A DNA stretch of 36,982 nucleotides, from positions 1-36,982 of IMG/VR virus record IMGVR_UViG_3300025130_000003, one strand, 5' to 3'. Origin of the DNA: a virus. The position numbers were made by a program, and so were the translations under genes. The notes beneath the pieces are model-generated. The model ran no database searches. It was given only the letters and a program-made list of their open reading frames with translations, and was not told the origin of the DNA. Positions 21,840-26,325 of the stretch are shown here, in pieces (the stretch's first letter is position 1; each line of letters begins with the position of its first letter).

Positions 21840-21868
21840 TTGACTTCTTTTTGTTTACAATTTAAATT
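21840..21868 (+). promoter_or_regulatory. Putative sigma70-type promoter for the structured leader
   Basis: TTGACT (21840-21845), 17 bp, TAAATT (21863-21868). Transcription would start near 21875, at the first helix of the structured leader. The same -35 hexamer TTGACT occurs in the proposed promoter before the portal gene. An upstream terminator at 21304 and the gap after Gp157 make a promoter here likely. Confidence 0.45.
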
Positions 21869-21873
21869 TATAT

Positions 21874-22004
21874 GGTCGGAAGACCGCTGCAGTGAGAAGC
21901 AGCGCGGAGATTATAATGAACTTGGCAACACTCAATAGATAAAATTCTCACCAGTTGACTTCAATTGAAAATCTCCGTTTATTGGGTGTTGCCTCATTTT
22001 GAGG
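21874..22004 (+). ncRNA. Highly structured leader RNA with interlocking helices (riboswitch-like)
   Basis: Helices by complementarity: GGTC/GACC closed by GGAA (21874-21885); GCTGC/GCAGC (21886-21903), whose loop GTGAGAA (21892-21898) complements TTCTCAC (21945-21951); CGGAGATT (21905-21912) with AATCTCCG (21970-21977); and a 14-bp helix 21924-21937 with 21980-21993 containing one G-U pair. The last two interleave, so they make a pseudoknot or alternate. CCTCA/TGAGG (21992-22004) masks the gagg ribosome binding site of ATG 22011 and competes with the 14-bp helix for 21992-21993. This suggests translational control. It is not a class I recognise. Confidence 0.55.
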
Positions 22005-22010
22005 TAAAAA

Positions 22011-22112
22011 ATGAACACTTTAGAAGTGAGAAGCGAATCTTCAAAAATCGAAATTCAAATAGATGTTGACGGCTGCATAGCCGTCACAGAAATAGCAGAC
22101 GGGAAATATTGA
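22011..22112 (+). CDS. Small 33-residue ORF behind the structured leader
   Basis: ATG 22011 has gagg at 22001-22004, inside a hairpin. The product is MNTLEVRSESSKIEIQIDVD then GCIAVTEIADGKY. It is acidic and predicted as a beta hairpin or two. It overlaps the upstream end of the initiator frame. No family is recognised; the clear ribosome binding site is the main support. It could act as a leader peptide for the initiator gene. Confidence 0.5.
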   Translation: MNTLEVRSESSKIEIQIDVDGCIAVTEIADGKY

Positions 22113-22177
22113 ATTTACAAAAGAAAACTCATTTAAGATTATGGAGTTTTTTAGAAAACAAATTGGAAAATTTGCAG

Positions 22178-22987
22178 ATGTCTGATGCTGGATGGCTGAA
22201 GCTTCATAGAGCTTTAATAGATTGGGAGTGGTTCAAAACTCCAAACATGGTGCATTTTTGGATATATTGCTTAATGAAAGCAAACCACGCTACTAAAAAA
22301 TGGCAGGGGATTGAAATATTGCCTGGCCAATTTGTCTCTGGCAGAGATGCGATGAGCCTAGAAACAGGTATCGGAGAGCAATCGATACGGACGTGCATAA
22401 ACAGGCTAAAATCAACCAACGAATTAACCAGCAAATCAACCAACAAATATACTATTTTTACGATAATTTCATGGAAAAAGTATCAATTAGACGAAGATTC
22501 TAACCAACAAATCAACCAACAACTAACCAGCAGCCAACCAGCAACTAACCAGCAACTAACCACAAACAAGAATGTAAAGAATGTAAAGAATGTAAAGAAA
22601 GATTTGTCCGAACAAGATTCGGACGAAGGGTTGACTGGTGAAATTTCAAAGACAGAAAGACAAAAAAAAGAAACTAAAAAAAATAAAATTTGGGAAGCAG
22701 TCAAAGTTTACTGGAATTTTTGCCCAGGAGGAAGCGAAATGGGGAGGGTTGTACGCGACTTGGAAAACATAGGTGCGACGCCATTCGCGATATGGGCTGT
22801 TTGGCACGGATGGGACCTTGTCCGTCCTGGATTGACGAGAGCAAACCCGCACAACTTCGCTTCAATTCATTTTGGTCAAGTGCGCGACGATTTGATGAAA
22901 GAAGAAAACAAATTAAAACTGGTTCAAAAGATAACTAGCCAAAAAATTGAAATTCCATTTGCAGAATCGGAAAGGATTTGGAAGTGA
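22178..22987 (+). CDS. Replication initiator-like protein (phage O/DnaD-like)
   Basis: About 269 residues from ATG 22178. GWLKLHRALIDWEWFKTPNM and PGQFVSGRDAMSLETGIGEQ are typical of a winged-helix N-terminal domain of phage replisome organisers (lambda O/DnaD-like), with helix-turn-helix near SIRTCINRLKSTNEL. The middle is a low-complexity N/Q/T and NVK repeat linker. The C-terminal part (KVYWNFCPGGSEMGRV, WHGWDLVRPGLTRANPHNF) may contact the helicase. It lies upstream of the primase-helicase, overlapping it as GTGA. An earlier in-frame TTG (22109) lacks a good ribosome binding site. The DNA repeats in the linker may be the origin. Confidence 0.65.
   Translation: MSDAGWLKLHRALIDWEWFKTPNMVHFWIYCLMKANHATKKWQGIEILPGQFVSGRDAMSLETGIGEQSIRTCINRLKSTNELTSKSTNKYTIFTIISWKKYQLDEDSNQQINQQLTSSQPATNQQLTTNKNVKNVKNVKKDLSEQDSDEGLTGEISKTERQKKETKKNKIWEAVKVYWNFCPGGSEMGRVVRDLENIGATPFAIWAVWHGWDLVRPGLTRANPHNFASIHFGQVRDDLMKEENKLKLVQKITSQKIEIPFAESERIWK
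22416..22600 (+). repeat. Iteron-like short repeats inside the initiator gene
   Basis: The motif aaccaac/aaccagc recurs about ten times between 22416 and 22563, spaced mostly 8-12 nt, followed by three copies of aatgtaaag (22570-22600). In lambda the O gene contains the iterons to which O protein binds to start replication. The same place, in the linker of an initiator gene, makes this a candidate replication origin. The repeats could also be simple slippage in a disordered linker. Confidence 0.45.
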
Positions 22988-24735
22988 AAAACTACGAAAA
23001 CGACAGAGAGTCGTTAATTCGATTCTTAGGGGAGATGGGGATTTCGTATAAAATCACAAACAATCAAGTGCGATTTCCATGCCCATCTTGTGGAAAATCG
23101 GACAAATTTTACATGAGCGCAGACACAACAGCGGCGATTTGTCACCACAGGAATAAATGCGGATGGACGGGGAATCTTTACTCGCTGATGAAGCACTACG
23201 GAAAATCTCCATTTGAGAGGCCAGAAAGGGCTAAATTAGACCAGAAAACATTCAGGCCATACATTGAGAGGGGTAAGACCCAAAAATGGCTTCTTGGCCA
23301 CGTTAGGGCCCTTGAAGGAATACCATTTGAAATTCTTACAAAATATGGGGTTTCTCTAGTCAAAAGATTTGACAGGGAGTGGATCGCATTCCCTCGAATT
23401 TTCGAAACTGGAGAAATCGCTGGTTTCAACTATCGCCTAAACTCAGACTCGGAAAAGACGTTTCAGCAAGAGCCTAAAACTGCTCAACCATTTTTCGGCC
23501 AGCATTTAGTAGAAGGAAACGAAGTTTTAAACATTGCAGAAGGAGAAAAAGATGCAATGGCGTTGGCATGGATGGGATTTGAAAACTGCGTTTCTGTGCC
23601 TGCTGGCGCAAACTCATACACCTACGAAATGCACGATTTTTTAATGAAAAACAAATTTAAGCGCATAAATCTTTTTGCAGACATGGATAAAGCAGGGGAA
23701 GAAATGGTAAAAATATTCCTTAAAAAGTGGAATGGGAAATTTTATCGAGTAGAATTGCCATGCAAAGACGCGCAAGAATGTCTTTTAAAGATAGAAAACG
23801 CTGCATTAACGGTAGCGCAATGCGTGGAAAATGCCATACTTCACGAACCAGAAATAAAATTAATAATAAAAGAACCCGAAGGGAAAGAATTAATTTTTAT
23901 ACCTAAAGAAAATCTTGATGAAAGCGCGCTGGAAATATGGGAAAAAGGCTATCCAAAAGGACTATCGCTTTCCATGGGAAAAGAAATGGACGAACATCTA
24001 AAACTTTTGCCTGGACAATTAACGATCATAACTGGAACACCAAATAGCGGAAAATCTGAACTTGCGGAATTGATGATTGTAAATTTGTCGATTCAATATG
24101 ATTGGAAATGGCTTTTGTTTATTCCAGAAACTTGGCCGCAGGGTATGATCAAGCACAGAATGATAAGCAAAAAGCTAAAGCGAAGGACGTTTGGGAAATA
24201 TATTTCAAAAGAAGAATTCGAGCGAGAGTCCGAGTGGTTTCATGAGCATTTTAAAATTATAGAGACAGAAGAGACGGTAACGCCAGAACAGCTAAAAGAC
24301 GAAATGCAAAATAACGATTACAACGGAATATTGATTGATCCTTGGAATGAACTTGATGTTGTTCGAGATAAAAATGATACGGAAACTGAATATATAAGAA
24401 AATATTTAATGGACTTAAAAAAAGTAGCGAGAAACAAACAGACTAGTGTTTTTCTCGTTGCGCACCCAGTAAAAATGCAAAGAGGAAAAGATGGTGAATA
24501 CCCAAAACCTAATCTTTTTGATATTGCTGGAAGTGCACAATTTTACAATAAAGCAGATAATGGGTTGACAATATGGAGGGATGCAAAAAAAAACGAAAGT
24601 GTTTTAACCATTGCAAAAGTAAAGCATGGAGTAATGGGGCGACTTGGCGAGCTCCCAATAATTTTTAATGAAGATTGGAGAGGATTTGAAATATTGAGCG
24701 AAAGCGATGAATGGAAGACGTTTTTAATCCCATAG
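22984..24735 (+). CDS. Primase-helicase (T7 gp4/Twinkle-like)
   Basis: 583 residues from GTG 22984 (overlap GTGA with the previous stop; aagga 22973-22977). N-terminal zinc-binding domain: C33-C36, then C53, H54 or H55 and C59 (CPSC ... CHHRNKCGW). Toprim-like core around residues 180-240 (LNIAEGEKDAMALAWMG, INLFADMDKAGEEMVKIF). RecA-type helicase domain with Walker A ITGTPNSGKSE near residue 350, Walker B-like YNGILIDPWNE and KQTSVFLVAHPVK. It would unwind DNA and lay primers at the phage fork. No separate DNA polymerase gene is seen, so the host polymerase is presumably used. Confidence 0.85.
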   Translation: MKNYENDRESLIRFLGEMGISYKITNNQVRFPCPSCGKSDKFYMSADTTAAICHHRNKCGWTGNLYSLMKHYGKSPFERPERAKLDQKTFRPYIERGKTQKWLLGHVRALEGIPFEILTKYGVSLVKRFDREWIAFPRIFETGEIAGFNYRLNSDSEKTFQQEPKTAQPFFGQHLVEGNEVLNIAEGEKDAMALAWMGFENCVSVPAGANSYTYEMHDFLMKNKFKRINLFADMDKAGEEMVKIFLKKWNGKFYRVELPCKDAQECLLKIENAALTVAQCVENAILHEPEIKLIIKEPEGKELIFIPKENLDESALEIWEKGYPKGLSLSMGKEMDEHLKLLPGQLTIITGTPNSGKSELAELMIVNLSIQYDWKWLLFIPETWPQGMIKHRMISKKLKRRTFGKYISKEEFERESEWFHEHFKIIETEETVTPEQLKDEMQNNDYNGILIDPWNELDVVRDKNDTETEYIRKYLMDLKKVARNKQTSVFLVAHPVKMQRGKDGEYPKPNLFDIAGSAQFYNKADNGLTIWRDAKKNESVLTIAKVKHGVMGRLGELPIIFNEDWRGFEILSESDEWKTFLIP

Positions 24736-25280: not shown

Positions 25281-25700
25281 ATGAACTGGCAATGGAAAAA
25301 TATTCCGAAAATAAAAAAAGTTTCATCAAACTACCTAAAAAATAAACTTGACAGACTTTTCAGCGAATATATACGCCTTCGAGACACAAGAAATGGATAT
25401 GGGCGTTGCATTACGTGTGATAAAGTAATCGTTTATAACAATTGTGATTGTGGTCACTTTATTAGCAGGAATAAAATAACCACCAGATGGGACGAAAGAA
25501 ACGCGAACGCTCAATGCAAGAAATGCAACAGGTTTTTATCAGGGAAACAATACGAGCATGGGCGCGCAATAAATAATAAGTTTGGAGAGGGGATCGCTGA
25601 AATATTGCTTAATACGTCGAAATTAGGAAGAGTCAATCAAAAGCAGCTAATCGAATATTATCAACTAAAAATAAAGGAAATAAAAAATGAATCAAATTAA
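25281..25700 (+). CDS. ninG: NinG/Rap-like recombination nuclease
   Basis: 139 residues, ribosome binding site aaggag at 25270-25275. It has the NinG pattern CITCDKVI ... CDCGHFISRNKITTRWDER, NANAQCKKCNRFLSGKQYEH: two Cys pairs binding zinc and a histidine-containing nuclease core. Lambda NinG (Rap) is a Holliday-junction/D-loop nuclease that aids Red-dependent recombination. Here it would act with the annealing protein encoded at 20263. It overlaps the sigma gene by 14 nt. Length is shorter than lambda NinG (about 204 residues), as in many phages. Confidence 0.8.
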   Translation: MNWQWKNIPKIKKVSSNYLKNKLDRLFSEYIRLRDTRNGYGRCITCDKVIVYNNCDCGHFISRNKITTRWDERNANAQCKKCNRFLSGKQYEHGRAINNKFGEGIAEILLNTSKLGRVNQKQLIEYYQLKIKEIKNESN

Positions 25701-26325
25701 CGAAATGGTTTGCGAATATCAAAAAACAAAATGCTCCAAAATTCTTGGACAAATAATAAAAGCAAACGAAGGGCATTTGTGGAATGTTTCGCGAAAATAT
25801 GCGAACAGCAGCAATATAAAAGATTGCGTTTCCGAGGGGAAAATAGCTATCTGTGCAGCCGCTCTAAAATTTAATTCAAATATTGGAGTATCCTTCATAA
25901 CGTACGCAATTTGGCATATTCGCGCTAGAATTATGCGATATATTCAGAGCGATACGACTGTCAAGCTGCCAGCTCAAATAGCGATGAGTGCTTTTTCGAA
26001 GGCTTCAAAGAATAATAAAGAAAGCATGAATATGCTGAAAAATGCAAGAAAAACAGAAAATATAGAATGGGGCGATGGGGAATCTAAATTTGCAGAAAAT
26101 GAGATAGAAGACGATTTGGGGTTAGATGTAGAGTTGTTGCTTAAAAATCTAACATCGAATGAAAAACTACATCTAAAGCAGTTTTTTGGAATTGGAGTAG
26201 AGAAACGAACGCTCAGCGAGATCGGTGAGCAAAATGGAATATCCAAAGAAGGAGCAAGGCTAAGAATAAAGAAAATTCAGGAAAAAATTAGAAATTCGCA
26301 TTTAGCCAGCCGTGAAGTCTGGTGA
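25687..26325 (+). CDS. Phage-encoded sigma factor (sigma70-like)
   Basis: 212 residues. Region 2: IKDCVSEGKIAICAAALKFN followed by VSFITYAIWHIRARIMRYIQ, parallel to the DLxQEGxxGLxxAxxKFdxxxGxxFxTYAxWxIRxxI core of sigma70. Region 4: LTSNEKLHLKQFFGIGVEKR, then SEIGEQNGISKEGARLRIKK, a helix-turn-helix that reads the -35 element. Region 1.1 is absent and the middle is short and polar, as in compact alternative sigma factors. It would redirect host RNA polymerase, most likely to late phage promoters. It is the last gene of the early operon. Confidence 0.8.
   Translation: MNQINEMVCEYQKTKCSKILGQIIKANEGHLWNVSRKYANSSNIKDCVSEGKIAICAAALKFNSNIGVSFITYAIWHIRARIMRYIQSDTTVKLPAQIAMSAFSKASKNNKESMNMLKNARKTENIEWGDGESKFAENEIEDDLGLDVELLLKNLTSNEKLHLKQFFGIGVEKRTLSEIGEQNGISKEGARLRIKKIQEKIRNSHLASREVW

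Follow-up and report, generated by a model that had tools for sequence, protein, structure and literature searches.

A structured RNA leader before a phage replication operon and a covarying leader family in the same position in Bacteroidota phages

Introduction

Does the DNA between a Gp157 gene and the first small ORF of a phage replication operon encode a structured RNA, and could such an RNA control the operon? The question was raised by a prediction made from the letters of the sequence, which described a promoter, several hairpins and two interleaved helices that together mask a ribosome binding site. The window analyzed here is a complete stretch of 36,982 nucleotides, the IMG/VR virus record IMGVR_UViG_3300025130_000003, and it carries phage structural genes (P22-type portal, TerL and capsid). 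Within the window the leader element occupies positions 21840-22007. Its anatomy was compared with chance expectation, its ribosome binding site was modelled, and relatives were sought in the same position in other phages.

Results

Promoter-like site and replication operon

The features of the locus are collected in Table 1. The original prediction placed the leader before a small ORF and a replication initiator gene. The small ORF and a replication operon are indeed found there, but the gene is a DnaD-like helicase loader and not an initiator in the strict sense. The TGA of the small ORF and an in-frame TTG of the loader ORF overlap as TTGA, an arrangement that would permit coupling of their translation; homologues of the loader start at a position matching a later ATG, at 22178. 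Shine-Dalgarno (SD) sequences are used in this phage: the anti-SD duplex reached -4 kcal/mol or better at 16 of 28 starts, compared with a background of 22%.

The predicted promoter was borne out in part. A sigma70-like site is present, and its expected +1 lies close to P1's first G, yet promoter-like sites were no commoner in the region than in shuffled sequences (17 found versus 15.8 expected, i.e. background level). The match is plausible by its position, because P1 would start at +1. A perfect TATAAT hexamer with no recognizable -35 is also found inside the leader, at about 21913-21918.

Several further features were noted downstream. A strong 8-bp hairpin (TGACGGCTGCATAGCCGTCA) lies at 22067-22086, within the 33-aa small ORF. 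Iteron-like tandem repeats of 11-12 bp (CTAACCAGCAA / AAATCAACCAAC) were observed within the loader gene at 22409-22448 and 22500-22562, and they are likely to be the replication origin. An origin in the leader was considered and rejected, the iteron-like repeats being inside the loader gene. A gene for a phage-encoded sigma70-family factor with regions 2 and 4 occupies 25687-26325, and this factor possibly has a promoter specificity of its own, for later genes.

Table 1. Coordinates of the window leader, its operon and leaders found upstream of replication genes in other loci. Window positions carry no prefix; positions in other loci follow the locus name.
Feature	Position	Strand	Remarks
Sigma70-like promoter, TTGACT-17-TAAATT	21840..21868	+	9/12 match; +1 expected about 21874
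P1, 5' terminal hairpin	21873-21877/21882-21886	+	GGAA (GNRA) tetraloop
P2 hairpin	21885-21890/21899-21904	+	5-6 bp, K5 in loop
K5, GTGAGAA	21892-21898	+	P2 loop
Helix A, 5' arm (GCGGAGATT)	21904..21912	+	
Helix B, 5' arm (GGCAACACTCAATA..)	21924..21938	+	interleaved with A
K3, TTCTCAC	21945-21951	+	pairs with P2 loop: pseudoknot K, 7 bp
Weak hairpin between K3 and A3	21952..21967	+	6 bp
Helix A, 3' arm (AATCTCCGT)	21970..21978	+	
Helix B, 3' arm (..TATTGGGTGTTGCC)	21979..21993	+	
SD-sequestering hairpin, TTGCCTCA/TGAGGTAA	21989-21996/22000-22007	+	
Shine-Dalgarno GAGG for ATG 22011	22001..22004	+	anti-SD duplex -6.9 kcal/mol
Small ORF, first gene of the operon	22011..22112	+	33 aa
DnaD-like helicase loader	22109..22987	+	
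Primase/helicase (TOPRIM + DnaB-like)	22978..24735	+	same operon as loader
R1 family leaders (examples)	L191, L213, L206, L291:4385-4478, L292:4749-4842, L290:4578-4677		
Type II leaders	L010:801-900; L013:1001-1093		

Anatomy of the leader

Helices were located by helix enumeration across the leader (21873-22007), and all of those named in the prediction were present, agreeing to about one base pair. The 7-nt loop of P2 is a perfect complement of K3, as described. The two interleaved helices, given as 8 and 14 bp, were found as helix A with 9 bp (eight Watson-Crick pairs and one G-U) and helix B with 14 bp (21924-21937/21980-21993), extendable to 17. Helices A and B interleave, and K crosses both. 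It is topologically possible for A and B to be present together; the arrangement would be sterically tight, as both helices have to be bridged by an 11-nt connector, and A and B may be alternatives in time instead of coexisting. No stable hairpin enclosing the bases of K3 was found in the helix enumeration. Helix B is followed by TCATTTTGAGG, in which there is no U-run and no terminator.

The pseudoknot-free fold of positions 21840-22020 had an energy of -48.2 kcal/mol, versus -34.5 ± 3.8 kcal/mol for dinucleotide-shuffled controls (z = -3.6), and none of the 200 controls was as stable. The score of the interleaved helices A and B was matched in none of 2000 dinucleotide shuffles. Hairpin-loop pairing that equalled K arose in 36 of the 2000, while the A and B score and the K match were jointly reached in 0 of 2000. 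The leader before these phage replication genes is a real structured RNA.

Modelling of the SD region

The folding ensemble was restricted in two ways, with helix B formed or with the 5' arm of B blocked. When B was formed, the modelled probability of an unpaired SD was about 0.8. When the 5' arm was blocked, this probability fell to 0.01-0.02, the TGAGG/CCTCA hairpin pairing the SD to about 98%; with the arm unavailable, helix A formed in the pseudoknot-free fold. Helix B and the SD hairpin have five bases in common (21989-21993) and were mutually exclusive in the modelling, which agrees with the competition that had been proposed between the 14-bp helix and a hairpin over the gagg site. On this model helix B would serve as the anti-sequestor and the SD hairpin as the sequestor. 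With B formed, the AUG is caught in a weak A/U hairpin (UCAUUUU/AAAAUGA; probability unpaired about 0.2), so the ON and OFF states are not clean, the AUG being paired while the SD is free. The design of a translational switch is therefore upheld for the modelled exclusion of the two helices but not as a clean two-state device.

Search for relatives of the window leader

No Rfam entry matched within the window at the gathering score, and the best sub-threshold scores in the leader were far below it, consistent with the earlier view that the topology resembles no known riboswitch or ribozyme class. The exact pattern of helix B was not found in IMG/VR, a distant blastn search of the leader among phages returned only chance-level matches, and no close relatives were found by primase/helicase and TerL peptides. 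None of the TerL-based relatives (80 loci, best identity 41%) had the loader, Gp157 or the leader. The window leader thus has no detectable sequence homologue and, as a result, no covariation support of its own. The N-terminal domain of the loader is conserved, and an alignment of this domain retrieved 80 viral and 79 genomic loci. Upstream of the retrieved loaders, many loci hold a pseudoknotted RNA at the corresponding site.

A covarying leader family in Bacteroidota phages

A family of leaders described by the covariance model R1 lies directly before Bacteroidota phage replication operons at over 100 loci. The common structure has a Bacteroidota-type promoter (TAnnTTTG), followed by a 5-bp hairpin, P1, whose loop holds an 8-nt K5 and then ATTATA. 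Helix B of this family has 10 bp, and its 3' arm runs into a U-run, forming an intrinsic terminator. Inside B lies P3, a 4-bp hairpin with K3 in its loop, which kisses K5 of the 5' hairpin. The conserved unpaired bases are ATTATA in the P1 loop, AATGA before P3 and GGAT after it. The promoter and terminator bound a transcript of ~95 nt.

A first set of 20 members gave a good alignment, in which pairing was 96.5%, both sides had changed in 23 of 27 pairs, and the score was 0.782 versus 0.223 when shuffled. Because those 20 members had partly been chosen for their K match, K was retested. The retest used a model without K, and most of the loci to which it was applied had been retrieved with a DNA pattern whose sole fixed elements were the promoter, the two ends of B (ACCCT and GGGT) and the U-run. 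The outer pairs of B were conditioned by this pattern search, whereas P1, P3 and K were not; K was absent from both the model and the pattern by which the sequences were collected. There were 77 matches. When K was included in the count for these, 98.0% of cells were paired, 24 of 27 pairs were doubly changed, and the score was 0.779 versus 0.203 shuffled; when the partners were slid by one column as a control, pairing dropped to 46%. The main helix of K was 97.7% paired, with both-side changes in six of its seven pairs. Another 35 matches were obtained among the remaining loci.

No Rfam 15 entry matched the R1 family, and no description of it was found in the literature searched. There was one match in 395 Bacteroidota genomes, so the R1 RNA is essentially a phage RNA. 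A comparable covarying pseudoknotted leader, that of the R1 family, exists in the same slot of other phages, and this covarying family is the more solid discovery of the two.

Gene context of the R1 family

The gene upstream often ends 10-30 nt before the R1 element, and in the examples read it encodes a DnaA C-terminal-domain protein. In most members a start codon follows about 15-25 nt past the U-run, and this first start belongs to an ORF of 55-90 aa or directly to the loader. With a DnaD-like domain profile, a DnaD-like loader was identified among the first ORFs in 42 of 86 R1 loci. Many of the other loci have loader-like proteins (DUF6291, and some that have no Pfam name), followed by an ATPase that is DnaB-like by sequence. 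Because the loaders are of several kinds, the R1 RNA goes with the replication operon and not with one loader family.

The isolated Cellulophaga phages phi19:1 and phi10:1 carry the R1 RNA (E = 3e-8), and a weak match with an 8-bp K was obtained in another isolated phage, Flavobacterium tooticki (E = 0.016). The order in phi19:1 is RNA, small ORF, loader-position gene, HNH and primase/helicase, and in phi10:1 too the RNA precedes a small ORF, a loader-position gene and a primase/helicase. The primase/helicases of both phages are homologous to that of the window.

Discussion

Proposed mechanism and alternatives

Regulation of the replication operon by the window leader is likely. The full mechanism that we favor, a cis-acting and probably translational control leader, is given a probability of about 0.55. 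The promoter-like site and the helices were seen and the exclusion between helix B and the SD hairpin was computed; from these we infer the regulation, the coupling and the signal. The leader would fold co-transcriptionally in the order P1, P2, K, A, interleaved B and, lastly, the SD hairpin. Since B and the SD hairpin share bases, formation of B would open the SD and its loss would close it, and P2, K and A, forming first, could bias whether B forms. An effector (a phage protein, host factor or metabolite) might stabilize or block the pseudoknotted core and so set translation of the small ORF and, via the TTGA overlap, possibly that of the loader along with it. The logic would be like that of the R1 leaders, with a readout at the ribosome site replacing the terminator.

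The leader might instead be an autogenous translational operator, to which the loader or another replication protein of the operon would bind and repress its own synthesis. The position before replication genes suits this idea, and there is precedent in T4 gene 32 and in the autoregulation of T4 gp43 (PMC3014915). However, the R1 RNA precedes loaders of several kinds and so does not track one loader, and the window leader does not have the A+U-rich, unstructured ribosome binding site seen in gene 32. We consider such an operator unlikely.

About equally unlikely is a structured 5' end with a purely constitutive role, either protecting the mRNA or fixing its expression level. No observation demands switching, and a stable hairpin stands right at the expected +1, an arrangement typical of protection from RNases; yet the elaborate interleaved helices and the exact way in which B overlaps the SD hairpin exceed the needs of protection, and regulation is favored by the presence of a covarying, terminator-linked family in that slot.

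Another candidate, which we hold to be quite improbable, is a riboswitch that binds a metabolite or an ion and acts through a translational expression platform. There is no match to an Rfam riboswitch and no ligand candidate, and near absence from the 395 Bacteroidota genomes, as found for the R1 family, is unusual for metabolite riboswitches. These points are set against a compact pseudoknotted core that adjoins an SD sequestor with mutually exclusive helices, and against the conserved unpaired bases of the analogous R1 family. A trans-acting small RNA or a replication-origin RNA (primer or antisense target), for which the window's own promoter-like site and the bounded ~95-nt R1 transcript could speak, is very unlikely given the near-constant 15-25 nt to the R1 start codon, the lack of any minus-strand promoter-like site in the window leader, and the location of origin-like repeats inside the loader gene instead.

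Beyond cis-acting control in the window, there may be a class of pseudoknotted replication-operon leaders in phages of unrelated hosts, which would sense the state of the infected cell and license the replication genes, using a terminator in Bacteroidota phages and an SD switch here. We put this forward tentatively and regard so general a class as doubtful. Control of replication operons by RNA may be widespread among phages. The covarying R1 leader, whose loci include two isolated, culturable Cellulophaga phages, and the window as its independent-looking counterpart are a concrete target for studying how phages time replication-gene expression through RNA.

Comparison with known and related systems

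Model R1 gave no match to the window at E ≤ 1. In the R1 family and in the window alike, the loop of a 5' hairpin pairs with a site inside helix B (in the window K5/K3, 7 bp), the order is promoter, leader, small ORF, helicase loader and helicase, and B ends just before the start codon. The K3 of the R1 family sits in the loop of the P3 hairpin, whereas the window K3 is in no stable hairpin; the R1 helix B is followed by a terminator U-run, whereas the window has an SD hairpin in its stead; and the window has an extra helix A, crossing B and K, that the R1 family lacks. Because the model fails, P3 and the U-run are absent and there is an additional helix A, the window leader is not a member of the R1 family, and it appears to be analogous to it in position and logic only. 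The similarity of K between the two (GTGAGA/TCTCAC) was judged a coincidence, since K is free to vary among family members. SD sequences are lacking in Bacteroidota (PMC6847099), and from this we infer the difference in platform, a terminator readout being expected there and an SD readout in the window.

Type II leaders, of which there are two distinct sequences only, were found upstream of a DnaD-like loader in IMG/VR contigs (L010/L011 and L013). That of L010 lies directly before the loader, and that of L013 before an HNH-like gene and the loader. Helices A and K each cross a long helix B, and the 5' order K5-A5-B5 is as in the window. In type II leaders A3 is in a hairpin loop before K3 and a U-run follows B, whereas in the window K3 comes before A3.

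Outside the two types, a general occurrence of loop-to-SD pseudoknots at DnaD-loader genes was unsupported, the shuffle test giving p ≤ 0.01 at 5 of 127 loci and p ≤ 0.05 at 10 of 127. Hairpins whose loops complement the loader gene's SD region were noted at about 3900-3989 of L009 (CTTTGCTC:GAGCAAAG, p = 0.01) and at about 2780-2865 of L036 (CCAACAG:CTGTTGG, p = 0.06), both only suggestive, and also in L095. In three Bacilli loci (L089, L101 and L111) a conserved leader with complementary CTCCA/TGGAG segments lies just upstream of the loader, with GGTGGTGG near the start codon. An abiF RNA (Rfam RF03085) scored just above the gathering score on the minus strand of L036, at 1738-1775.

The HDV-like ribozyme shares with the window two interleaved helices and a small hairpin nested between B5 and A3. 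It was rejected on anatomy: the 0-2 nt between A3 and B3 leave no room for the catalytic J4/2, the short J1/2 of the ribozyme contrasts with the 11-nt connector of the window, and there was no Rfam match. In IncI-type rep leaders the pseudoknot is antisense-controlled, and the promoter of the antisense RNA lies opposite the leader; on the minus strand of the window no promoter-like site was seen across 21860-22010 in what is a weak test, and the window therefore differs from the IncI type in this feature.

The nearest established mechanism is the leader pseudoknot of T4 gene 32, which lies 67 nt upstream of the start codon and binds gp32 in autogenous control (PMC3014915). The gene 32 leaders of T4, T2 and RB69 and the window leader alike have a pseudoknot in the leader ahead of a phage replication gene, and in gene 32 the readout is translational. 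The gene 32 leader is a single H-type pseudoknot, whereas the window has nested and interleaved helices and an SD hairpin that overlaps B; the ribosome binding site of gene 32 is separate, unstructured and A+U-rich, whereas that of the window is placed in a hairpin by the modelling.
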